Positions 41,569 through 51,549 of a DNA stretch of 64,000 nt are shown piece after piece. Position 1 is the first letter of the stretch, and each line of letters opens with the position of its first letter. This DNA comes from Streptomyces sp. NBC_01298 (GTDB lineage Bacteria; Actinomycetota; Actinomycetes; Streptomycetales; Streptomycetaceae): contig NZ_CP108414.1 in assembly GCF_035978755.1 (NCBI RefSeq), positions 7,812,001 through 7,876,000 on the forward strand, read 5' to 3'. Below the pieces are notes generated by a model that was not told where the DNA came from, ran no database searches, and worked only from the letters and a program-made list of their open reading frames with translations. A program made the translations under genes and the position numbers.

Positions 41569-42048
41569 CTAGCGTTTCCGCGCCGCCCGTCCCACGGACT
41601 CGACCAGGGGGAGGAGCCGGTGCGGGACCCGCTCGCGCAGTGCGACCTCGGTACGGGTGCGCACCACGCCGGGCAGCCGGATCAGCCGCTGGATGACGTC
41701 CTCCAGATGCGCGTTGTCCCGCGCGGCCACCCGGGTCAGCAGGTCCCCGCCGCCGGTGATGGAGAAGGCCTCGATGATCTCCGGTACGGAGGCCAGCGCG
41801 TCGCCGACCTCGTCCAGGTGCCCCTGGGTGACCTCGATGTGCACGAAGGCCAGGACCGGATGCCCGAGGGCGGCGGGGGAGAGCGCCGGCCCGGTCCCGG
41901 TGATCACCCCGGTGCGCTCCAGCCGGTCGATCCGGGCCTGGAGGGTGCCGCGCGCGACGCCGAGGATCCGGGCGTACTCCCGGACGCTGGTGCGCGGCTG
42001 CTCGATCAGCAGGCGCAGGATCCGTGTGTCGAGCTCGTCCACCGCCAT
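41569..42048 (-). CDS. Lrp/AsnC-family transcriptional regulator
   Basis: 159 residues from the ATG at 42048. N-terminal AsnC helix-turn-helix (LDTRILRLLIEQPRTSVREYARILGVARGTLQARIDRLERTGVI) and a C-terminal RAM ligand-binding domain (VLAFVHIEVTQG; AFSITGGGDLLTRVAARD). It likely binds an amino acid and regulates nearby or amino acid genes. The lipid operon ends 44 nt upstream on the same strand, so read-through is possible. Confidence 0.93.
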   Translation of the reverse strand: MAVDELDTRILRLLIEQPRTSVREYARILGVARGTLQARIDRLERTGVITGTGPALSPAALGHPVLAFVHIEVTQGHLDEVGDALASVPEIIEAFSITGGGDLLTRVAARDNAHLEDVIQRLIRLPGVVRTRTEVALRERVPHRLLPLVESVGRAARKR

Positions 42049-42091: not shown

Positions 42092-42898
42092 TCACACCCG
42101 CTCCGACCCGCCATGACGGCGCGGCCGGCGGGGCGGCAGCGGCAGGAAACCGCTGGTACGGGCCCGGTAGGCGGCGTAGCCGGGCCGGTCCGCCATGTGC
42201 CGCTCCAGCAGCCGCTTCCCGCTGCCGCCGATCAGCAGGTACGACATCACGAGCGGGGAGACCACCGACACCGCCACCGCGCCGCCCGAGGTCCAGGCGG
42301 TCAGCGACAGCCCCCACCACACGCAGAAGTCGCCGAAGTAGTTCGGGTGCCGGGTCCAGGACCACAGGCCCCGGTCCATGATCCGCTCCCGGTTCGCGGG
42401 ATCGGCCTTGAAGCGGGCCAGCTGGTGGTCGCCGACCGCCTCGAAGAGCAGCCCGCACAGCCACAGCGCCGTGCCCGCCACCGCCAGGGCCCCGGGCCGC
42501 CCGGTCGCGTACGCGGCCGCCTGCACGGGCAGCGAGACCAGCCAGACCAGGCCCGCCTGGAGCAGGTAGACCATGCGCAGCGCGTACAGGTCGCGGCGGC
42601 CCGGAGCCTTGGCGAGCATCCGTTGGTAGCGCGGGTCCTCGCCGTGGCCCCGGCCCCGCCACGCGATGTGCCCGGCCAGCCGCAGGCCCCACACCACCGC
42701 CAGGACCGCCGGGAGCGGGTGCCGGCCGCCCGACTGCGCGTACGTGGCCACCGCGACGGCCACGAAGCCCAGGCCCCAGGCCACGTCCACCCCGCGGTGC
42801 CGGCGCAGCCGGACCCCGACGGCGAAGGCGGCCAGCATCACGGCGAGGGCCGCCCCCGCCGAGACGGCCAGGTTGAGCCCGAAGGCGCCCCAGTTCAC
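42092..42898 (-). CDS. DUF1295 membrane protein (steroid 5-alpha-reductase/isoprenylcysteine methyltransferase-like)
   Basis: 268 residues from a GTG at 42898 that overlaps the fatty acid methylase stop as GTGA. Six to seven membrane helices. The C-terminal NRERIMDRGLWSWTRHPNYFGDFCVWWGL block is the DUF1295/ICMT-like signature that binds NADPH or SAM. Last gene of a four-gene operon with overlapping ends, so it probably acts on the same lipid as the others, for example as a reductase. Reaction not established. Confidence 0.88.
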   Translation of the reverse strand: MNWGAFGLNLAVSAGAALAVMLAAFAVGVRLRRHRGVDVAWGLGFVAVAVATYAQSGGRHPLPAVLAVVWGLRLAGHIAWRGRGHGEDPRYQRMLAKAPGRRDLYALRMVYLLQAGLVWLVSLPVQAAAYATGRPGALAVAGTALWLCGLLFEAVGDHQLARFKADPANRERIMDRGLWSWTRHPNYFGDFCVWWGLSLTAWTSGGAVAVSVVSPLVMSYLLIGGSGKRLLERHMADRPGYAAYRARTSGFLPLPPRRPRRHGGSERV

Positions 42899-44154
42899 CG
42901 GGCACCACCGCCCGCGGCGAGCCCCTCCGGGGCCGAGCGCGTCAGCAGGAACTGGTGCACGTCCAGGTAGCCCGAGGCGAAGCCGGCCTCGCAGTAGGCC
43001 AGGTAGAAGGTCCACATCCGCCGGAACGTGGCGTCGAAGCCCAGCTCCGCCACCCGGTCCGCCCGCTCGGCGAAGCGCTCCCGCCACAGCCGCAGCGTCT
43101 GCGCGTAGTGGGCCCCGTAGGCCGTGGAGCGGGTCACGCGCAGTCCGGTGTGCGAGCGCGCCGTCTCCTCCACCACCCGCACCGACGGCAGCATGCCGCC
43201 GGGGAAGATGTACTTGTGGATCCAGGTGTACGTGTCCCTGGTGGCGAGCATCCGCTCGTGCGGCATGGTGATCGCCTGGAGCGCGACCCGCCCGCCGGGC
43301 GCCAGCAGCCGGTCCAGCGTGGCGAAGTACACCGGCCAGTACTCGGCGCCGACCGCCTCGATCATCTCGACGCTCACGATGGCGTCGTAGCTCCCCTCGG
43401 CCTCCCGGTAGTCGCACAGCCGCACCTCGACGCGGTCGGACAGCCCGGCGGCCGCGATCCGGCGCAGGGCCAGCTCCCGCTGCTCCCGGGAGAGGGTCAG
43501 GGTGACCACGTGCGCACCGCGCCGGGCGGCCCGGACGGCCAGCTCGCCCCAGCCCGTGCCGATCTCCAGCAGCCGGGTCCCCGGACCGGTCTCCGCCAGG
43601 TCCAGCAGCATGTCGATCTTGCGGTGCTGGGCCTCGGCGAGCAGCTCCGGGGAGGCGGGCAGGGCGGCGAACACCGCCGAGGAGTAGGTCATCGTCGAGT
43701 CGAGGAACTCGGCGAAGAGCTCGTTCGACAGGTCGTAGTGGCGCTGGATGTTCGTCCGCGAGCCGTCCGGGGTGTTGCGGTCCGAGGCCGGGTGCCGGGA
43801 GGCCCACAGGCCGCGCAGCCGCTGGAGCGGAGCCGGCACCAGCCCCGTCACGTGCCCGGCCAGGACCGTCAGGACGGCCACCGGGTCGCGTGCGTCCCAC
43901 TCCCCGGCCAGGTACGACTCGCCGAACCCGATCAGCCCCTCGGCCGCGATCCGGCGCTCGAACGCGTCGGGGTCGTACACCGCCATCGCGGGGCCGCCCC
44001 GCCCCAGGGTCCCGTCGGGGCCCATCCGGACCTGGAGCGGCAGCCGGTCCAGGGCCCGGCGGATCAGCAGCCGCCCGACGGCGGCCCTGGCCCGGGAACA
44101 GGGCGGCACCGCCGGTGCGGTGGCGGTGGTGGTGCTGGTGGTCGACGTGCTCAC
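42895..44154 (-). CDS. Cyclopropane-fatty-acyl-phospholipid synthase-family methyltransferase
   Basis: 419 residues from a GTG at 44154 overlapping the DUF1365 stop (GTGA; GGAGGG upstream). N-terminal CFA lipid-binding domain, then the SAM domain: IQRHYDLSNELFAEFLDSTMTYSSAVF, LLEIGTGWGELAVRAARRG (about residue 190), LCDYREAEGSYDAIVSVEMIEAVG. It transfers a methyl(ene) group to double bonds of phospholipid acyl chains at the membrane. In this operon context a methylated or furan-type fatty acid product is as likely as a cyclopropane. Confidence 0.92.
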   Translation of the reverse strand: MSTSTTSTTTATAPAVPPCSRARAAVGRLLIRRALDRLPLQVRMGPDGTLGRGGPAMAVYDPDAFERRIAAEGLIGFGESYLAGEWDARDPVAVLTVLAGHVTGLVPAPLQRLRGLWASRHPASDRNTPDGSRTNIQRHYDLSNELFAEFLDSTMTYSSAVFAALPASPELLAEAQHRKIDMLLDLAETGPGTRLLEIGTGWGELAVRAARRGAHVVTLTLSREQRELALRRIAAAGLSDRVEVRLCDYREAEGSYDAIVSVEMIEAVGAEYWPVYFATLDRLLAPGGRVALQAITMPHERMLATRDTYTWIHKYIFPGGMLPSVRVVEETARSHTGLRVTRSTAYGAHYAQTLRLWRERFAERADRVAELGFDATFRRMWTFYLAYCEAGFASGYLDVHQFLLTRSAPEGLAAGGGAR

Positions 44155-45014
44155 TTCAAGCCCTCCTGGGGTACGTGTATGGGGCGCGGCCGGACGGGCT
44201 GACCGCGCAGCCACAGCCGGACGCCGTGGAAACGGATGCCGACGCTGACGGCGGCGGTGGACCAGGGCCGGCGCAGCGCGGCGCGCAGCAGCCCGCGGGC
44301 GCCGGCGGGGCGGCGGTCGCCGCGGACGGTCGCGGTCAGGCGGGCACCGTCGGTCCCGCCGGCCAGCCGGACGGTCAGTGCGAGGTGTTCGCCCGGTTCG
44401 GGCAGCCGCATGCGGTAGGCGCCTTCCACGGCGAGGAAGGGGGAGACGTAGAACTCCTTGGCGACGGGGGACACTTCGAGATCGCCGCGGTCGCCGCGCT
44501 CGCTGAGGTCACCGCGCTCGCCCCTGTCGCCCCTGGCGGTCTCCGGCGGGAGCAGGTAGCAGTGCCGTTCGCCGTAGGTGTTGTGCACCTCGGCGACCAC
44601 TTGGCGCAGGGAGCCGTCCGGGCCGCGGCACCAGTACACGGTCAGCGGGTTGAAGACGTGGCCGAGGACGCGGGCGTGCGCCAGCATCAACACCCGGGAA
44701 CCCGGCGGGAGTCCGGCGCCGCGCGCCGCCAGGAACGCGTCCAGTCCGGCCCGGATCGAGGGGGCGCCGCCGCCGAAGTGGTCACGCGCGTCGAACCGGG
44801 CGAGCGACCGCAGCGGTCGGGGGAGGTCGGGCAGCCGGTCGAGGTCGACCAGCCACAGGTACGTACGGTGCCGCAGCCGGTAGCGGCTCCCGCCCGACCG
44901 GACGTGCCGGATGTCGGCCAGGTAGAGGCAGGGCTCTGCCGGACGGGGCTCTGCCGGACGGGGCTCCGCCGGACGGGGCTCTGTCGGACGCGGGTCCGCC
45001 GGGTCGGGGCTCAC
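44151..45014 (-). CDS. DUF1365 protein
   Basis: 287 residues from a GTG at 45014, which overlaps the upstream stop. DUF1365 blocks: LYLADIRHVR, YRLRHRTYLWLVDLDRLP, VLMLAHARVLGHVFNPLTVYWC, EVHNTYGERHCYLLPP, EFYVSPFLAVEGAYRMRLPEPG. The biochemical role is unknown; the family nearly always sits between a CFA-type methylase and an amine-oxidase-like protein. Oddities: an N-terminal PRPAE repeat from a 15-bp DNA repeat (44933-44997) and an internal run of GDRGER-type repeats (44480-44530). Confidence 0.9.
   Translation of the reverse strand: MSPDPADPRPTEPRPAEPRPAEPRPAEPCLYLADIRHVRSGGSRYRLRHRTYLWLVDLDRLPDLPRPLRSLARFDARDHFGGGAPSIRAGLDAFLAARGAGLPPGSRVLMLAHARVLGHVFNPLTVYWCRGPDGSLRQVVAEVHNTYGERHCYLLPPETARGDRGERGDLSERGDRGDLEVSPVAKEFYVSPFLAVEGAYRMRLPEPGEHLALTVRLAGGTDGARLTATVRGDRRPAGARGLLRAALRRPWSTAAVSVGIRFHGVRLWLRGQPVRPRPIHVPQEGLK
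44933..44997. repeat. 15-bp tandem repeat in DUF1365 gene
   Basis: About four imperfect copies of a GCCGGACGGGGCTCT-like unit, read as the PRPAE pentapeptide repeat on the minus strand. The length keeps frame. Confidence 0.8.
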
Positions 45015-46330
45015 CACGACACCCCCAGCGCGGCGGCGGCTTCCACGCCCGAACGGCAGCCGTCCTCGTGGAACCCCCACCCGTGATAGGCCCCGGCGAA
45101 GGCCGTCACCGGCCCCGACAGGGCCGGCAGGAGCCGCTGGGCCGCCACCGACTCCGTGGTGTAGACGGGATGTTCGTACTCCATCTCGGCCAGGACCGAC
45201 CCCGGCCGTACGGCCTCGCCCGCGTTCAGCGTGACCACGTACGGCTCCGGCCCGTCCAGCCCCTGGAGCCGGTTCATGTCGTAGCTGACCCGTACGTGCG
45301 CGTCGTCCGGCCGGCACCCCGACAGCCGGTAGTTCCAGCAGCCCCGGGCGCCGGGCGCGCTCGGCAGCACCGAGGCGTCGGTGTGCAGCACGGTCCGGTT
45401 GCGGGAGTAGCGGAAGGCGCCGAGCGCGGCGCGCTCCGCGTCCGTCGGATCGGCCAGCAGGCGCAGCGCCTGATCGGCGTGGACGGCGACGACCACCGCG
45501 TCGTAGAGATCGGTGGCCCCGCCGGCGGTGGTGACCGACACGCCCCGCGGGGTGCGCGCGAGGGCCCGTACGGGCGTGGCCGTGTACACGGCGTCCAGCC
45601 GCTCGCGGACCCGCTCCACGTAGCGCGCCGAGCCGCCCTCGACCGTACGCCAGGCCGGCGAGCCGCCCACCGACAGCAGGCCGTGGTGGTCCAGGAACCG
45701 GAACAGGTACCGGGCCGGGTACCCGAGCGCCGTGTCCGGCGGGCAGGACCACACCGAGGCGACCAGCGGGATCGCGAAGTGGGCGGTGAAGTAGGCCCCG
45801 AAGCGGCCCTGTTCGAGGAACTCGGCGAGGGTGATCTCGCCGCCGCCCGCCGCTTCCGTTCCGGCGGTGCCGGCGGTGCCGACGGTGCCGGCCGTGGCCA
45901 GCAGCCGCCTCGCCCGCCGGTGGAACGCCGGGATCCGTGCCAGCATCCGCAGGTACCGCGGGTTCACGGCGGACCGGCTCCCGGCGAAGAGCCCGCGCGG
46001 CCCGCGCGCACCCGCGTACTCCAGCCCGCACCCCTCGCAGTGGACCGACAGGCTCATCGTCGTCGGCCGGGTGGCCACCCCCAGCTCGCCGAAGAGCCGC
46101 AGGAGATGCGGGTAGGTGCGGTCGTTGTGCACGATGAACCCCGAATCCACCGCCCGCACCACCCCGTCCGGCCCTTTGACCTCGTGGGTGTGCGCGTGCC
46201 CGCCCAGCCGGTCGTCCGCCTCGTAGACGGTCACCTCGTGCGAGCGCGCCAGCACGTACGCCGCCGTCAGCCCCGATACGCCCCCGCCGATCACGGCCGT
46301 CCGCGGGCGCGGCGCCCCTCGCTCGGTCAT
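45011..46330 (-). CDS. FAD-dependent amine-oxidase-like oxidoreductase (COG2907 type)
   Basis: 439 residues from the ATG at 46330 with GAGGGG about 8 nt upstream. FAD dinucleotide motif AVIGGGVSGLTAAYVLA, then YEADDRLGGHAHTHEV, DSGFIVHNDRTYPHLLRLF, VWSCPPDTALGYPARYLFRFLDHHGLL and the C-terminal AYHGWGFHEDGCRSG. This is the flavoprotein that accompanies DUF1365 and CFA-type genes in light- or singlet-oxygen-induced clusters. In R. sphaeroides furan fatty acid synthesis a related flavoprotein desaturates a methylated acyl chain, so fatty-acyl oxidation is plausible here. First gene of the operon. Confidence 0.92.
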   Translation of the reverse strand: MTERGAPRPRTAVIGGGVSGLTAAYVLARSHEVTVYEADDRLGGHAHTHEVKGPDGVVRAVDSGFIVHNDRTYPHLLRLFGELGVATRPTTMSLSVHCEGCGLEYAGARGPRGLFAGSRSAVNPRYLRMLARIPAFHRRARRLLATAGTVGTAGTAGTEAAGGGEITLAEFLEQGRFGAYFTAHFAIPLVASVWSCPPDTALGYPARYLFRFLDHHGLLSVGGSPAWRTVEGGSARYVERVRERLDAVYTATPVRALARTPRGVSVTTAGGATDLYDAVVVAVHADQALRLLADPTDAERAALGAFRYSRNRTVLHTDASVLPSAPGARGCWNYRLSGCRPDDAHVRVSYDMNRLQGLDGPEPYVVTLNAGEAVRPGSVLAEMEYEHPVYTTESVAAQRLLPALSGPVTAFAGAYHGWGFHEDGCRSGVEAAAALGVSW

Positions 46331-46496
46331 CGTGTTCCCCTCTCGTCGCCCGCCACCCGTCACCCCCTCTTCGGAGCCGAGGGGGGTCTTGGATGTGCCG
46401 TACGGGGGAATCCCGCATCCGATCCGGCGCGCCGCGGGGAACCGGAGGCAGGGGGTCGGGGTACCGAAGGACAGGGATCGAGGAGCGGAGACAGCC
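46331..46496. promoter_or_regulatory. Divergent control region of the lipid and photolyase transcripts
   Basis: 166 nt between two divergent genes. A partly symmetric element, GGATG...CATCC, spans 46391-46420 and is a possible site for the MerR-type regulator. GGGAACC at about 46437 resembles an ECF-type -35 (GGAAC). Neither was confirmed by a matching partner element, so both are suggestions. Confidence 0.4.
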
Positions 46497-48002
46497 ATGA
46501 CGGGCAAGAACTGCCTGGTCACCGGGGCCAGCGGATACATCGGCGGACGCCTCGTACCGGACCTCCTGGAGGCCGGGCACCGGGTCCGCTGCCTGGCCCG
46601 CACCCCGGAAAAACTGCGCGACCACCCCTGGGCCGGGGACACCGAGATCGTCCGGGGAGACGTCACCGACCGCGCGTCCCTCGCCGCCGCGATGGACGGC
46701 ATCGACGTCGCCTACTACCTCGTGCACTCCCTGGGCACCGGATCCCGCTTCGAGGAACGCGACCGGGAAGCCGCCCGGGCCTTCGCGGACGAGGCCCGCG
46801 CCGCCGGGGTCGGCCGCATCGTCTACCTCGGCGGGCTCACCCCCGTGGACGTCCCGCCGCGGAACCTCTCACCGCACCTGCGCTCCCGCGCCGAGGTCGG
46901 GGAGATCTTCCTCGCGGGCGCCGTTCCGGCCACCGTGCTGCGCGCCGCCGTGGTCATCGGGTCCGGGTCCGCGTCCTTCGAGATGCTGCGCTACCTGACC
47001 GAACGCCTGCCCGTCATGGTCACCCCCAGCTGGGTCGGCACCCGCTGCCAGCCGATCGCCGTCCGCGACGTGCTGCGCTACCTCGTCGGCAGCGCCGGCA
47101 TGCCGCCCGAGGTGAACCGGCCCTTCGACATCGGCGGGCCCGACGTGCTCACGTACGAGGAGATGATGCGCCGCTACGCCACCGTCGCGCACCTCCCCGC
47201 CCGCCTCATCCTGCGGGTCCCGATGCTCACCCCGAGGCTGTCCAGCCACTGGATCGGCCTGGTCACCCCCGTGCCGAGGGCGCTGGCCCGGCCGCTCGCG
47301 GAATCCCTGCGGCACGAGGTGGTGTGCGCGGAGCACGACATCGCCGCCCACGTCCCGGACCCGCCGGGCGCGCCCATCGGCTTCGACGAGGCCCTCGCGC
47401 TGGCCCTCCGGCGGATCCGCGAGGCCAAGGTGACCACCCGCTGGTCCTCCGCCGCCGTCCCCGGCGCGCCGAGCGACCCGCTGCCCACCGACCCCGACTG
47501 GGCGGGCGGCAGCCTCTACACCGACAGCCGGGAGCTGGCGGTCGAGGCCCCGGCCGCGGAGCTGTGGCGGGTGGTGGAGGGCATCGGCGGGGAGAACGGC
47601 TGGTACTCCTTCCCGCTGGCCTGGGCCGTACGGGGCTGGCTGGACCGGCTCGTCGGCGGAGTCGGCATCCGGCGCGGCCGCCGGGACGCGGCGCGGCTGC
47701 GGGTGGGGGACTCCCTGGACTTCTGGCGGGTGGAGGAGATCGAACCGGGCCGGCTGCTGCGGCTGCGCGCCGAGATGCGGCTGCCGGGGCTGGCCTGGCT
47801 GGAACTCCACGCCGATCCGCCGGCCCCCGGGGAGACCGGATCTCGCTACCGCCAGCGGGCCCTCTTCCATCCGCACGGCCTGCTGGGCCACCTGTACTGG
47901 TGGAGCGTGTCACCGTTCCACGCCGTCGTCTTCGGCGGCATGGCCCGCAACATCGCCCGCGCGGCGAAGCGAGCGGACACCGAGCGCACGGGTGCGACGT
48001 AG
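46497..48002 (+). CDS. SDR-type NAD(P)-binding protein with DUF2867 domain
   Basis: 501 residues from the ATG at 46497, with GGAG 9 nt upstream. N-terminal atypical SDR (TGASGYIGGRLVPDLLEAGH; RGDVTDRASLAAAMDGIDVAYYLVHSLG) followed by a DUF2867/SRPBCC-like C-terminal half (residues about 340-490; WRVVEGIGGENGWYSFPLAWAVRG; FHPHGLLGHLYWW). The C-terminal half may bind a hydrophobic ligand. Homologues occur in lit/phr gene clusters. Start of the plus-strand side of the light module. Confidence 0.88.
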   Translation: MTGKNCLVTGASGYIGGRLVPDLLEAGHRVRCLARTPEKLRDHPWAGDTEIVRGDVTDRASLAAAMDGIDVAYYLVHSLGTGSRFEERDREAARAFADEARAAGVGRIVYLGGLTPVDVPPRNLSPHLRSRAEVGEIFLAGAVPATVLRAAVVIGSGSASFEMLRYLTERLPVMVTPSWVGTRCQPIAVRDVLRYLVGSAGMPPEVNRPFDIGGPDVLTYEEMMRRYATVAHLPARLILRVPMLTPRLSSHWIGLVTPVPRALARPLAESLRHEVVCAEHDIAAHVPDPPGAPIGFDEALALALRRIREAKVTTRWSSAAVPGAPSDPLPTDPDWAGGSLYTDSRELAVEAPAAELWRVVEGIGGENGWYSFPLAWAVRGWLDRLVGGVGIRRGRRDAARLRVGDSLDFWRVEEIEPGRLLRLRAEMRLPGLAWLELHADPPAPGETGSRYRQRALFHPHGLLGHLYWWSVSPFHAVVFGGMARNIARAAKRADTERTGAT

Positions 48003-48497
48003 CCTCCGTCGGGCGGGGGACCCCCGCCGCCGACCGCCCTGCCGGCGGTAGCCGGTGAGGTCGGGGCGAAGCCCCGGGGGCTCGCCACTACCCGGGCGCC
48101 GCGCGCCGGCGCCACCGCATCCAGGACGGTGCGGCGTCGGTGACCCCTCGGGGGGCGAGGCGCGCCCGCCGCGCCGGGCCCCGGGCGGCCCAGGCGGCCC
48201 CCGTGCGGGACCCCGGAGCCCCACCGCATACGGCCCCCGGGCGGCCCCCGGGAGCCCCACCGCATACGGTCCCGGGTGGCCGAGCCCGTGCGGCCCGGGG
48301 CCCAACCCCGTACGCCCCCCGGGCCGAACCCCGGTGCCATCCCCGCGGCGGAGCCGGTGCGGTCGGGGCGAAGCCGGGGGGTTCCCGGCGGCTCCCGGGC
48401 ACTGCGCGGCAGTGTCATCGCATCCGGGACGGGGTCCGGGGGCGAAGTAGCTCGTGAGACCCAGCCCGTACCCCCATCCCCACGCGGAGCGAACCCC
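48003..48497. other. Gene-free, repeat-rich 495-nt gap between SDR and photolyase genes
   Basis: No supported gene. Both ends carry a related GGTCGGGGCGAAGCC element with similar following sequence (about 48057-48132 and 48357-48433, roughly 70% alike by eye). Between them a CCCCACCGCATACGG motif is repeated directly at about 48220 and 48256, amid C/G-rich near-repeats. Open frames across it on both strands are low-complexity and lack start signals. The photolyase promoter presumably lies near its right end. Confidence 0.6.
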
Positions 48498-49877
48498 ATG
48501 AACGTCGCGGTGGTCCTCTACACCTCCGACCTCCGGCTGCACGACCATCCGCCGCTGCGGGCCGCCCTGTCCTCCTCCGGGCAGGTCGTGCCGCTCTTCG
48601 TGCGCGATCCGGCCGTCGACGCCCCGCCCAACCGGCTCGCCTTCCTCGCCGACTGCCTCGCCGGCCTCGACGACGGGCTGCGCGCCCGCGGCGGCCGTCT
48701 CGTCGTACGGTCCGGCGATCCGGTCGCCGCGGTCATGGCGGTCGTACGGGAGGCCGACGCCGACGAGGTGCACATGGCGGCCGGGGTGAGCGCCTACGCC
48801 CACGCACGCGAGGCGCGGCTGCGCGAGGCCCTCGAAGCGGAGGGCCGGCGGTTCCACGTCCACGACGCGGTGATCACCGCGGTCGCCCCCGGGGCCGTCA
48901 CCCCCTCCGGGTCGGGCGCCGACCACTTCGCCGTCTTCACCCCGTACCACCGCCACTGGTCGGAGCACCCCCTGCGGGCCGCCGCACCCGCGCCCCGCGG
49001 CGTCCCGGTGCCCGACGCGATCCGCTCCGAGCCCCTGCCCGAGCGCGCCGCCGTCACCGGTACCTCCCCGGGCCTCGCCCCGGGCGGCGAGCCCGAGGCG
49101 CGCCGGCTGCTCGCCCGGTGGCTGCGCTCCGGCATCGACCGCTATTCCGAGACCCACGACGACATGGTCGGCGACGCCACCTCCCGGCTCTCCCCGCACC
49201 TGCACTTCGGCACGCTCTCGCCCACCGAGGCCGTCCACCGGGCCCGCGCCGCCGGTGGTCCCGGTGCGGAGGCCTTCGTACGGCAGCTGTGCTGGCGCGA
49301 CTTCCACCACCAGGTGCTCGCCGCCCGGCCGGCCGCCGCCGCCGCGGACTACCGGGACCGGGGCGACCGCTGGCGCACCGGCGCCGCCGCCGAGGAGGAG
49401 ACCCGGGCCTGGAAGGAGGGCCGCACCGGCTACCCGGTCGTGGACGCGGCCATGCGCCAACTGGCCCACGAGGGCTGGATGCACAACCGCGGCCGACTGC
49501 TGGTCGCGAGCTTCCTCACCAAGACCCTGTACGTCGACTGGCGCGTCGGAGCCCGCCACTTCATGGACCTCCTCGTCGACGGGGACCTCGCCAACAACCA
49601 GCTCAACTGGCAGTGGGCGGCGGGCACCGGCACCGACACCCGCCCCAACCGGGTCCTCAACCCCGTGCGCCAGGGCCTGCGTTACGACCCCGACGGCGGA
49701 TACGTCCACCGCTGGGTCCCCGAACTGGCCGGACTGCCCGCGCCGCGCGTGCACGAGCCCTGGCGGCTCCCCGGCCTGGAACGGGCCCGCTACGACTATC
49801 CCGACCCGGTGGTCGGCCTCGCCGACGGGCTGGACCGCTTCCGCCGGGGCCGCGAGGCGGGCGAGGGGCCCGGGTGA
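48498..49877 (+). CDS. phr: Deoxyribodipyrimidine photolyase (class I)
   Basis: 459 residues from the ATG at 48498. N-terminal photolyase antenna domain (LYTSDLRLHDHPPL) and FAD-binding C-terminal domain: LSPHLHFGTLSPTEAV, RQLCWRDFHHQVLA, WKEGRTGYPVVDAAMRQLAHEGWMHNRGRLLVASFLTK, DGDLANNQLNWQWAAGTGTDTRPNRVLNPVRQ. The Trp and Asn positions of CPD photolyases are kept. It repairs UV-induced pyrimidine dimers with blue light. The stop overlaps the litR start, so repair and light sensing are co-expressed. Confidence 0.96.
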   Translation: MNVAVVLYTSDLRLHDHPPLRAALSSSGQVVPLFVRDPAVDAPPNRLAFLADCLAGLDDGLRARGGRLVVRSGDPVAAVMAVVREADADEVHMAAGVSAYAHAREARLREALEAEGRRFHVHDAVITAVAPGAVTPSGSGADHFAVFTPYHRHWSEHPLRAAAPAPRGVPVPDAIRSEPLPERAAVTGTSPGLAPGGEPEARRLLARWLRSGIDRYSETHDDMVGDATSRLSPHLHFGTLSPTEAVHRARAAGGPGAEAFVRQLCWRDFHHQVLAARPAAAAADYRDRGDRWRTGAAAEEETRAWKEGRTGYPVVDAAMRQLAHEGWMHNRGRLLVASFLTKTLYVDWRVGARHFMDLLVDGDLANNQLNWQWAAGTGTDTRPNRVLNPVRQGLRYDPDGGYVHRWVPELAGLPAPRVHEPWRLPGLERARYDYPDPVVGLADGLDRFRRGREAGEGPG

Positions 49878-50950
49878 CCCCCCGACGGCCCGCCGCGCCG
49901 TACGGTGGAACGGTGGAGTCCGGACCCCCGCAGCCCCAGACGCAGCGCCAGCCCCAGCAGCCCCAGCCCCAGCCCGAGCCCGAGCCCGTCGCCCTCGGCA
50001 CCGGGGCGGTCGCCCGGCGCCTCGGGGTCTCGCCGACCACGCTGCGCTCCTGGGAGCGCCGCTACGCCATCGGCCCGGAGGACCGCCGCCAAGCGGGCCG
50101 CCACCGGCGCTGGACGCCCGCCGACATCGCCCGCCTGGAGCTGATGTGCCGGCTCACCGCCCAGGGCGCACCCCCGTCGGAAGCCGCCCGGGTGGCCCGG
50201 GGAGCCCCCGCGGACGGCCCGGCCGCTTCGGCCGCCCCGACCCCCGGAGGGCCCCGCGAGCTGCGCCTCGGGGACGTCCGCCCGGAGTGCCGGGGGCTCG
50301 CGCGGGCCGCCGTACGACTGGACGCGGCGGCCGTGGAGGACCTGCTGGCGTCCGTGCTCGCCGAGCTGGGCCCGGTCACCGCCTGGGAGGAGGTCATCGC
50401 GCCGACGCTGCACGCCGTGGGCCGCAAGTGGGCTTCGGCGGGCGAGCGTTACGTTGAGGTCGAGCATCTCCTGTCCTGGTACGTCTCCGCGGCCCTGCAC
50501 CGGATCCGGCCCGCTACTCGTCCGCTCCCGGCCCCGCCCGTGCTGCTGGCCTGTGCGCCCGGCGAGCAACACAGCCTGCCGATGGAGGCGTTGGCCGCGG
50601 CCCTCGGCGAACGGGCCCTGCCCGTACGGATGTTCGGAGCGGCCCTACCCGCCGACGCCCTGTGCGAGGCCGTCCGGCGGACGGGTCCGCGGGCCGTCGT
50701 CCTGTGGGCGCAGTCCCGTACCACCGCGGACGCCGCGCTCGCCAGGGCGGTTGCGGGCATCGAGTGGGGTCCGCGCGGCGCCCGCGGCCACTCGGCGCTG
50801 CTGCTCGCGGGACCCGGATGGGGCGCGGGAGCCGCCGCCCCGCCCGCCCGCGCCGAGCGGCTGTTCGGGCTCCGCTCGGGGCTGGCCGTCATCGAATCGG
50901 TTGTGGCACGGCCCCGGCCTCCCGGGACTGCTCCAGGGAATGCCGCATGA
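49874..50950 (+). CDS. litR: MerR-family B12-binding light-responsive regulator (LitR/CarH type)
   Basis: 358 residues from a GTG at 49874 (GTGA overlap with phr, GAGGGG 5 nt upstream); a GTG at 49913 is the alternative. A Gln/Pro-rich N-terminus precedes a MerR helix-turn-helix (GAVARRLGVSPTTLRSWERRYAIG). The helical domain has WASAGERYVEVEH (Trp186 to Glu197-His198), close to the CarH Wx9EH signature but with one extra residue. The Rossmann domain has GEQH with His233 as the likely cobalt ligand. In CarH/LitR, adenosylcobalamin photolysis relieves repression. Likely represses itself and nearby light genes. Its 3' end overlaps the sigma gene. Confidence 0.88.
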   Translation: MTPRRPAAPYGGTVESGPPQPQTQRQPQQPQPQPEPEPVALGTGAVARRLGVSPTTLRSWERRYAIGPEDRRQAGRHRRWTPADIARLELMCRLTAQGAPPSEAARVARGAPADGPAASAAPTPGGPRELRLGDVRPECRGLARAAVRLDAAAVEDLLASVLAELGPVTAWEEVIAPTLHAVGRKWASAGERYVEVEHLLSWYVSAALHRIRPATRPLPAPPVLLACAPGEQHSLPMEALAAALGERALPVRMFGAALPADALCEAVRRTGPRAVVLWAQSRTTADAALARAVAGIEWGPRGARGHSALLLAGPGWGAGAAAPPARAERLFGLRSGLAVIESVVARPRPPGTAPGNAA

Positions 50951-51467
50951 CGTGCAGCGCCCGCCGCATGTGGCTCTTGACCGTGCCCAGCGGGAGCCCC
51001 GTGCGGTCCGCGATCTGCGACTGGGTCAGGTCCGCGTAGAAGGCCAGCCGCAGCACCCGCTGCTGCGCCGACGGCAGCCGGGCCAGCTCGCCGAGCAGCA
51101 CCACCCGTTCCACGGCCCGCTCCGGTCCCGGCTCCGGTTCCGGCCGGACCTGGGCGCAGACCCGTACGGCGGCCTCGACCGCCCGGGCCCGCCGGGTGCG
51201 GGCCTCCAGGGCATCGGCCACCTTGTGCCGGGTGATGCCGGTCAGCCAGGCCCCGAGGCCACCCGGCCCGGGCCGGTACCCGCCGCGGCCCCGCCACGCG
51301 GCGAGGAAGACCTGCTGGGTCACGTCCTCGGCCTCCCGCTCGTCGCCGAGCGAGCGCCGCGCGAGCGCGTGCACCAGCGGCCGCCAGCGCCGGTAGACCG
51401 CCGCCACGCACTCCTCGTCGCCCGCCGCGAAATCCGCCGCCAGCCGGGCGTCGTCCTGGTCGTCCAT
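50889..51467 (-). CDS. ECF RNA polymerase sigma factor (LitS-like by context)
   Basis: 192 residues from the ATG at 51467. Region 2 (YRRWRPLVHALARRSLGDEREAEDVTQQVFLAAWRGR) and region 4 (LPSAQQRVLRLAFYADLTQSQIADRTGLPLGTVKSHMRRAL) are both complete. No anti-sigma gene is adjacent. It converges on litR, and the last 62 nt of the two genes overlap antisense. By analogy with S. coelicolor litR-litS, LitR may control it and it may drive phr and the lipid operon. Confidence 0.9.
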   Translation of the reverse strand: MDDQDDARLAADFAAGDEECVAAVYRRWRPLVHALARRSLGDEREAEDVTQQVFLAAWRGRGGYRPGPGGLGAWLTGITRHKVADALEARTRRARAVEAAVRVCAQVRPEPEPGPERAVERVVLLGELARLPSAQQRVLRLAFYADLTQSQIADRTGLPLGTVKSHMRRALHVMRHSLEQSREAGAVPQPIR

Positions 51468-51518
51468 GCCCCGAGCCTCGCGAGCGCGCGGGCGCCGGCC
51501 AAGTTGCACCGCTTCCGC

Positions 51519-51549
51519 ATCGATTCGACACCGACGCGTCGATCGATTC
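51519..51549. promoter_or_regulatory. Repeat element upstream of the ECF sigma gene
   Basis: Two direct copies of ATCGATTC (51519-51526 and 51542-51549) flank a perfect palindrome CGACGCGTCG (51532-51541), about 52 nt upstream of the sigma start. A good candidate operator; whether for LitR is unknown. Confidence 0.45.

Follow-up and report, generated by a model that had tools for sequence, protein, structure and literature searches.

A predicted LitR-LitS light regulon with a putative furan-type fatty acid operon in a Streptomyces genome lacking detectable carotenoid genes

In Streptomyces, the gene litS, encoding an extracytoplasmic function (ECF) sigma factor, is induced by light through the regulator LitR, and RNA polymerase carrying LitS reads the crtE promoter (PMC12705666, PMC5401885; published work is cited from excerpts throughout). 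Furan fatty acids are made in Rhodobacter sphaeroides by a set of three proteins: UfaM methylates vaccenate, UfaD, a flavin adenine dinucleotide (FAD) protein resembling phytoene desaturases, adds a second double bond, and UfaO, a DUF1365 protein, forms the furan with O2; the homologues of R. palustris act in the same way (PMC7380195). Control of this lipid cassette by singlet oxygen through sigmaE-ChrR is already known in R. sphaeroides, as is LitR control of ufaM in Pseudomonas (PMC9758184). Here, we describe a locus in a 64,000-nucleotide stretch of DNA from Streptomyces sp. NBC_01298 (contig NZ_CP108414.1, positions 7,812,001 to 7,876,000; hereafter the window), whose genome of 9.7 Mb is of Streptomyces type. 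An earlier note on this DNA had proposed a lipid module linked to light and reactive oxygen species; its parts are present, and the link itself was already known from the Pseudomonas LitR homologues and Rhodobacter sigmaE-ChrR.

We consider it probable that the locus is a light-controlled photoprotection regulon, in which a LitR-LitS switch drives a DNA photolyase gene (phr), a short-chain dehydrogenase/reductase (SDR)-like gene and a four-gene lipid operon of furan type (Table 1). In the dark, LitR loaded with the adenosyl form of vitamin B12 (AdoB12) would sit on an 11-bp tandem repeat at the litS promoter and keep the sigma factor off, and blue-green light would destroy the B12 chromophore, leading to litS expression. 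LitS-RNA polymerase would then read three promoters of the form CATCC-N17-[C/G]GAA, in front of the lipid operon, the SDR gene and phr-litR; because phr-litR would stand under LitS, we propose that LitR also resets its own switch. Enzymes of the lipid operon would methylate an unsaturated phospholipid acyl chain, desaturate it and insert oxygen, and the product, a furan-type (or methylated, conjugated) fatty acid, would react with singlet oxygen, standing in place of the carotenoids of related streptomycetes. What we infer from the locus is the light response, the pairing of proteins with binding sites, the direction in which LitR acts and the nature of the lipid product.

The evidence consists of features established directly, namely the genes and their conservation, promoter and operator sequences common to relatives, residue signatures, and a genome without crt or chrR matches above cut-off. 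Loci were compared in a set made up of the window and the best 80 of 402 loci by likeness to the window LitR, the 80 including no S. coelicolor record. Aligning the window with four relatives from its own clade (type A, below) gave a shared block that precedes both the lipid operon and phr. The promoter motif derived from this alignment was scored as CATC[CG]-N17-[ACG]GAA on the sense strand, up to 320 nucleotides upstream; the number of regions varies between genes, as matches were dropped if they had less than 45% identity, started after residue 60 or lay too near a contig end. The motif is found before 54 of 59 SDR genes, 55 of 67 phr genes and 8 of 20 lipid operons, and is rare elsewhere (litR 1/80, the methylase gene 1/19, the DUF1365 gene 0/21, the DUF1295 gene 0/21 and the sigma factor gene 0/74). 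Shuffled upstream sequence (50 first-order Markov samples per upstream set) gave a mean motif count below 0.5 per set. These counts were made after the -10 element had been widened from [CA]GAA to [ACG]GAA on sight of the window's own SDR site, and after matches had been seen in further relatives' loci, some of them from the same strains as counted loci.

The motif precedes the lipid operon in 7 of the 8 type A loci whose FAD gene is long, and outside type A it is still found before phr (36/48) and SDR genes (35/40). A G, which the motif does not require, stands directly before it at all 109 phr and SDR sites, and the type A lipid-operon sites have an A there. Spacers of 16 or 18 bases are found in none of 67 phr regions and, each, in 2 of 59 SDR regions. 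Five of the 20 lipid operons have a 16-base spacer (L072, of type A, and L124, L131, L133 and L142, of other groups), and these promoters may accept a shorter spacer or be under another control; reading this spacer in L072 as a sign of decay was dropped, since the operons of the other four are complete with an identical spacer. The gene in front of crtI carries the motif upstream in all 6 CrtI loci, and the 4 such genes that were scanned all encode polyprenyl synthases, as crtE does. Because the motif also stands before crtE-like genes, and crtE is the published LitS target, CATCC-N17-[C/G]GAA is likely the LitS promoter, as judged from these upstream sequences. With the motif in 0 of 74 litS upstream regions, and 2 of 74 for a 16-base spacer, autoregulation of LitS by the same form of promoter was rejected.

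Upstream of litS, the window has an 11-bp tandem repeat, CGATGCGGAAG-CGGTGCAACTT, which runs into a TTG that by eye could belong to a -35 element. Its consensus recurs with at most 2 mismatches in 71 of 74 litS upstream regions, the same regions from which it was read, and in none of the phr, SDR or lipid-operon upstream regions; where litR is divergent from litS, its upstream region matches in antisense orientation. The exact pattern was searched in 101 Streptomyces genomes as a wider test, these genomes overlapping in species with the 80 loci. It gave 26 matches, one in each of 26 genomes and in every case on the contig that carries litR, which lies within 6 kb of the match in 25 of them and 12.8 kb away in the other; the reversed control gave none. 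CarH operators consist of 11-bp units in tandem, which contain promoter elements or overlap with them (PMC9304148), and the published core TnnACA is found, by eye, in some of the first repeats only. The repeat is thus a candidate LitR operator of CarH form. The earlier note had proposed 46331-46496, between the FAD and SDR genes, as one of two regions for LitR footprinting. Two sigma-type promoters point away from each other in that stretch, which has no repeat of LitR type; the repeat lies instead at 51500-51522, and a third sigma-type promoter, which the earlier note did not mention, precedes phr-litR (48421-48447). A LitR repeat between the FAD and SDR genes was rejected as a candidate more generally, no such region matching within 2 mismatches on either strand; a looser scan of the sense strand found 0 of 20 FAD regions within 5 mismatches and 2 of 59 SDR regions within 3.

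The window's lipid operon encodes all three Ufa protein types together with a DUF1295 protein, so that the fatty-acid-modifying operon proposed earlier is found with a complete UfaD/UfaO/UfaM-type set. In Halomonas, ufaM, ufaD and ufaO are also consecutive (PMC12089945), as in the window. Sequences were compared with homologues from Paracoccaceae, Azospirillum and Salinivibrio rather than with the R. sphaeroides proteins: the window FAD protein is 36-43% identical to four proteobacterial homologues, and the methylase 37-45% identical to those of Paracoccus, Azospirillum and Salinivibrio. In these three genera, the methylase gene adjoins the FAD-DUF1365 core, which it does not in Qingshengfaniella. 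The neighbours of the core itself are genes for a sigma factor and ChrR in Qingshengfaniella and Azospirillum; Paracoccus has a sigma/anti-sigma factor pair there, and in Salinivibrio the core belongs to a gene run that includes MerR and phrB. Fasciclin genes were seen near two of the proteobacterial versions of the operon. The methylase belongs to the cyclopropane fatty acid (CFA) synthase family, in which the solved chains have YSCA and a His (5 of 5 displayed, among 10 listed). The methylases of the module, the window's included, have Ser or Ala (YSSA/YSAA) and Gln at those positions in 19 of 19 cases, and so do 4 of 4 methylases from other ufa-type operons (three proteobacterial, one from a Streptomyces plasmid). 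The altered Cys and His are presumably bicarbonate/active-site positions. A pattern for the acidic active-site motif had no match in the methylases, including that of the window, and was not used.

The operon may nevertheless stop short of a furan under the same switch, yielding a mid-chain methyl-branched fatty acid or a methylated conjugated diene, or the DUF1295 protein may reduce a methylated olefin to a saturated branched chain that alters fluidity. This alternative, which we consider unlikely while giving it real weight, draws on the weak resemblance of the DUF1295 protein to steroid reductases, and on the occurrence of its gene in Streptomyces operons while none is annotated in the four proteobacterial loci read. 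It is countered by the role of UfaO, the furan-forming step of the characterized pathway (PMC7380195), and by the DUF1365 gene, which is found in all 18 loci with FAD and methylase genes, a test that itself requires all three genes, the only other methylase above 250 amino acids being that of L130. The window's DUF1365 gene is the sole one in its genome. In four loci (L116, at about 5.8 kb; L126, at about 5.7 kb; L058; L061), a second CFA-like methylase, 33-35% identical to that of the window, is encoded within the lipid operon or adjoining it, and might carry out a second, FufM-like methylation step; no residue motif was found in the L116 and L126 copies, which are weaker.

A genome-wide search for crt genes bears out the earlier statement that carotenoid genes are absent. 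No CrtI is found above the family cut-off in the genome (best score 139 vs 238 bits), and no CrtB, both squalene/phytoene-synthase matches scoring as HpnC and HpnD and lying near HpnH. Hidden carotenoid synthesis was rejected on these grounds.

LitR relatives (E < ~1e-20, a cut-off of our choosing, with 20 candidates scored per genome) are present in 52 of the 101 Streptomyces genomes and a DUF1365 gene in 36; LitR is found in 30 of the 36 genomes with DUF1365 and in 22 of the 65 without it (Fisher p 2.7e-6, uncorrected for phylogeny). Gene content was read in 80 loci, counting the window and leaving out L084, which was too short for this and for the tree. The gene set recurs in other Streptomyces. 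The window's arrangement, type A, consists of SDR-phr-litR facing litS and is found in 19 loci, including those of S. lavendulae, S. cirratus, S. katrae and S. xanthophaeus; one, L078, has no litS match. Type A forms one group in the tree (18 loci long enough, support 98/82). The window's gene order is also found at L033, L034, L036, L037, L066, L069, L071, L073 and L076, the last being the locus of S. lavendulae with its full gene set, and this identical order in relatives argues that the cluster is not due to chance. In other Streptomyces groups, the same genes are reordered, with litR and litS often divergent.

LitR of the window, the only LitR match in its genome (20 of 76 candidates scored), has an N-terminal MerR helix-turn-helix followed by a B12-binding four-helix domain, both above Pfam cut-off. 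The CarH cofactor residues W131, E141, H142 and H177 align with W186, E197, H198 and H233 and are invariant in 14 LitRs. The motifs GxxW, EH, GxxH and GxxxP, proposed as a light-response signature (PMC11796333), are present as GRKW, EH, GEQH and GAALP, so that the CarH-like motifs reported earlier for this regulator are real. LitR thus carries the residues and motifs that a B12 photoreceptor requires, and light sensing is predicted from them. As in the LitR-LitS switch, an ECF sigma factor gene is linked to litR in the window and its relatives.

Several observations weigh against the proposed regulon, beginning with LitR itself. Its second B12 domain (PF02310) scores 21.5 bits vs a cut-off of 32.1, the CarH alignment running through the domain all the same. 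The protein is one residue longer than CarH between W and EH, and it reaches 74.8 bits vs the NCBIfam CarH cut-off of 400; as this is an equivalog model, the low score speaks chiefly to whether the protein should be called CarH and less to its class. LitR may have lost light sensing and answer to B12 status or another signal instead. The low CarH score, the weak second domain and a P where CarH has a G after the histidine motif would fit this idea, which we hold improbable given that LitR retains the four cofactor residues as well as the four light-response motifs. The effect of LitR on litS is worded as promotion in light in one source (PMC12705666) and as derepression in another (PMC5401885). 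The exact operator pattern is absent from 26 of the 52 genomes with LitR, among them the window's own, which has one mismatch.

The promoter motif and the distribution of the lipid operon add to these difficulties. The N17 motif precedes the lipid operon in just 1 of 12 cases outside type A. On the antisense strand, it is found in 9 of 59 SDR, 5 of 20 FAD and 2 of 67 phr regions, with an 18-base spacer in 7 of 67 phr regions; the SDR and FAD matches are partly expected, since the two genes share one intergenic region in type A. Across the window's own genome, the motif shows no excess (20 matches vs 19 for the reversed control) and is therefore meaningful by position only; a large LitS regulon drawn from the genome-wide pattern was rejected as not usable. 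DUF1365 is found without LitR in 6 of 36 genomes. The FAD-DUF1365-methylase trio is complete in 18 of the 80 loci, partial in 7 and missing within the fetched flank in 55, and of the 19 type A loci 6 have the full set of four lipid genes, 5 have some of them and 8 have none, so that the lipid operon is dispensable. In six loci (L119, L120, L124, L131, L133, L142), it lies 123-239 nucleotides behind litS on the same strand, by tblastn ends. Streptomyces membranes, moreover, consist mostly of saturated branched chains. The genome has six desaturase-family genes (four membrane-type, two of the acyl carrier protein-linked, or acyl-ACP, type), which could supply unsaturated chains.

The sigma factor might alternatively be governed by singlet oxygen through an anti-sigma factor, as in sigmaE-ChrR, with LitR merely modulating it. 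Among solved structures, R. sphaeroides RpoE is closest to this sigma factor in sequence, and the sigma-ChrR and sigma/anti-sigma neighbourhoods of the FAD-DUF1365 core in Qingshengfaniella, Azospirillum and Paracoccus lend this some appeal. Against it, no ChrR is found above cut-off in the genome (best 25.1 vs 124.5 bits, far from the module), in agreement with the earlier note, Pfam finds no anti-sigma factor among the genes beside the sigma factor gene, and the CarH-type repeat precedes litS in nearly all loci. ChrR control was rejected for want of a ChrR match above cut-off, and we regard the anti-sigma explanation in its general form as having little probability.

Least probable, in our view, is an ordinary cyclopropane methylase in a general envelope-stress operon that merely neighbours phr-litR-litS, for which speak the CFA fold family, a light-induced putative CFA synthase of Vibrio cholerae (VC1122; PMC5241685) and the lack of the operon in many relatives, and against which stand a score below the Cfa equivalog cut-off (236.3 vs 400 bits) and the replaced Cys and His, on which ordinary cyclopropane synthesis was rejected, together with the sigma-type promoter before the operon in type A.

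The coordinates of the locus are collected in Table 1. Open reading frames and Pfam domains agree with the earlier account of eight genes and their domains, and the layout given there, a four-gene operon divergent from SDR, phr and the regulator with a convergent sigma factor gene, is borne out. Every gene junction in the lipid operon has a 4-nucleotide overlap, as do phr and litR. The tails of litR and litS overlap by 62 nucleotides on opposite strands (50889-50950), which would make the ends of the two transcripts complementary; overlaps of this kind are also suggested in close relatives.

Table 1. Genes and candidate regulatory sites of the locus (positions in the window)
Feature	Positions	Strand	Evidence
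DUF1295 protein resembling membrane oxidoreductases and, weakly, steroid reductases; last gene of lipid operon	42092..42898	-	PF06966 E 9.7e-66, PF02544 1.1e-7
UfaM-type S-adenosylmethionine (SAM)-dependent fatty-acyl methylase, CFA family	42895..44154	-	PF02353 2.1e-88; YSSA/LQAIT signature
UfaO-type DUF1365 protein	44151..45014	-	PF07103 8.8e-62
UfaD-type FAD/NAD-binding amine-oxidase/desaturase-like protein; first gene of lipid operon	45011..46330	-	PF01593 8.9e-26
Candidate LitS promoter of lipid operon, CATCC-N17-CGAAG	46369..46395	-	motif in 7/8 type A loci with long FAD gene
Candidate LitS promoter of SDR gene, CATCC-N17-GGAA	46416..46441	+	motif in 54/59 SDR upstream regions
SDR/NmrA-like and DUF2867 protein	46497..48002	+	PF13460 4.1e-20, PF11066 2.9e-45
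Candidate LitS promoter of phr-litR, CATCC-N17-CGAAG	48421..48447	+	motif in 55/67 phr upstream regions
DNA photolyase (phr)	48498..49877	+	PF03441 3e-70, PF00875 2.9e-39
LitR/CarH-type MerR regulator with B12-binding domains	49874..50950	+	PF13411 5.4e-14, PF02607 9.9e-12; alignment with CarH 3whp/5c8d
LitS-type ECF sigma factor, convergent with litR	50889..51467	-	PF04542, PF04545; nearest solved chain 2q1z, 2.5e-16
Candidate LitR operator, 11-bp tandem direct repeat upstream of litS	51500..51522	-	runs into TTG, possible -35 by eye

Other features of these loci were noted alongside. Between SDR and phr, positions 48003-48420 are very GC-rich, with repeated pieces around CCCACCGCATACGG (by eye). 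An Lrp/AsnC regulator gene (41569-42048), with 94-99% identity in 18 type A loci, adjoins the lipid operon and marks the spot where the operon is present or missing in type A. In L068, L072, L074, L075 and L085, also of type A, the operon looks partly lost, with short FAD remnants and the methylase or DUF1295 gene missing. S. xanthophaeus NRRL B-5414 has two LitR genes, one in a type A locus without the lipid operon and one distant (L070, L087). A linear plasmid of Streptomyces sp. NBC_00158, typed as non-mobilizable (L168), carries a lipid operon and a LitR gene, near genes for an MpaB-type oxygenase and an SRPBCC protein. A second ECF sigma factor gene (30-32% identity) lies between the lipid operon and litS in L128 (7165-7917, minus strand), L109, L112, L116, L126 and L129; in L128, an RskA-type anti-sigma factor gene (Pfam RskA_C) stands beside it, so a second regulator may act there. 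In S. wuyuanensis (L082, 10958-12475, plus strand), a DPRP photolyase-related gene between litR and a crtE-like gene recalls CryB of the Pseudomonas light regulon.

In its regulatory half the locus is of Streptomyces LitR-LitS type and in its effector half of furan-fatty-acid type; both have been published before, as has a general connection between light and this lipid. What appears new, from its sequence, is the union of both in a streptomycete without carotenoid genes, with the operon placed under a sigma factor predicted to be common to phr and to the crtE of relatives. No description of this combination in Streptomyces was found in searches of an open-access library. Tentatively, and as somewhat less than an even chance, it can be thought that the B12 light switch was re-aimed from carotenoids to a furan fatty acid pathway, the lipid replacing the pigment, and that the cassette was joined separately to LitR-LitS, to LitR with a light-oxygen-voltage (LOV) protein, and to sigmaE-ChrR. 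The locus suggests that a single lipid cassette has been coupled to light or singlet-oxygen sensors that differ from phylum to phylum. It also offers a direct test of the role of furan fatty acids, in a Gram-positive, non-photosynthetic bacterium that lacks carotenoid genes and may produce these lipids in response to a known light switch. For Streptomyces, it yields specific candidates for the LitS promoter and the LitR operator, which would help LitR-LitS optogenetic tools.

Among described systems, the pmlR1/pplR clusters of Pseudomonas have a LitR homologue beside phrB, SDR, FAD oxidoreductase and ufaM genes and are light-inducible (PMC9758184 and the P. putida work cited there). They differ from the window in a class II LitR without the full B12 domain, a LOV partner, a sigma70-type promoter and an operator of TGTACA repeats. 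The blue-light response of V. cholerae likewise has parts in common with the window, namely a MerR-phr operon and a light-induced CFA-type gene; MerR and sigmaE-ChrR both act there, and the excerpt describes no LitS (PMC5241685). CarH of Thermus and Bacillus has the same cofactor residues, light-response motifs and tandem 11-bp operator repeats (PMC9304148, PMC11796333), whereas LitR has its extra residue between W and EH, has a candidate operator that matches the TnnACA core only partly (by eye) and is predicted to act through a sigma factor. With the Ufa pathway of R. sphaeroides and R. palustris, the window has in common the same three protein types and adjacent UfaD and UfaO genes (PMC7380195), and its methylase has the residue signature of proteobacterial operons of equal content. 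The pathway is under sigmaE-ChrR in R. sphaeroides, whereas the window adds DUF1295 and its furan product is a prediction. The earlier note held that the wiring differs from both of its models, LitR/CarH and sigmaE-ChrR; it resembles instead the published LitR-LitS wiring, with another target (PMC12705666, PMC5401885). S. coelicolor has a B12-dependent MerR photoregulator and a light-induced ECF sigma factor (Takano et al. 2005, 2016, via the same sources), as predicted for the window, and the sigma motif before relatives' crtE-like genes and the 11-bp repeat before the sigma factor gene extend this likeness to sequence level. Unlike that carotenoid switch, the window's genome has no carotenoid genes, and the likely targets are the furan-type operon, SDR and phr-litR, with litR and litS convergent here and divergent in many other Streptomyces.

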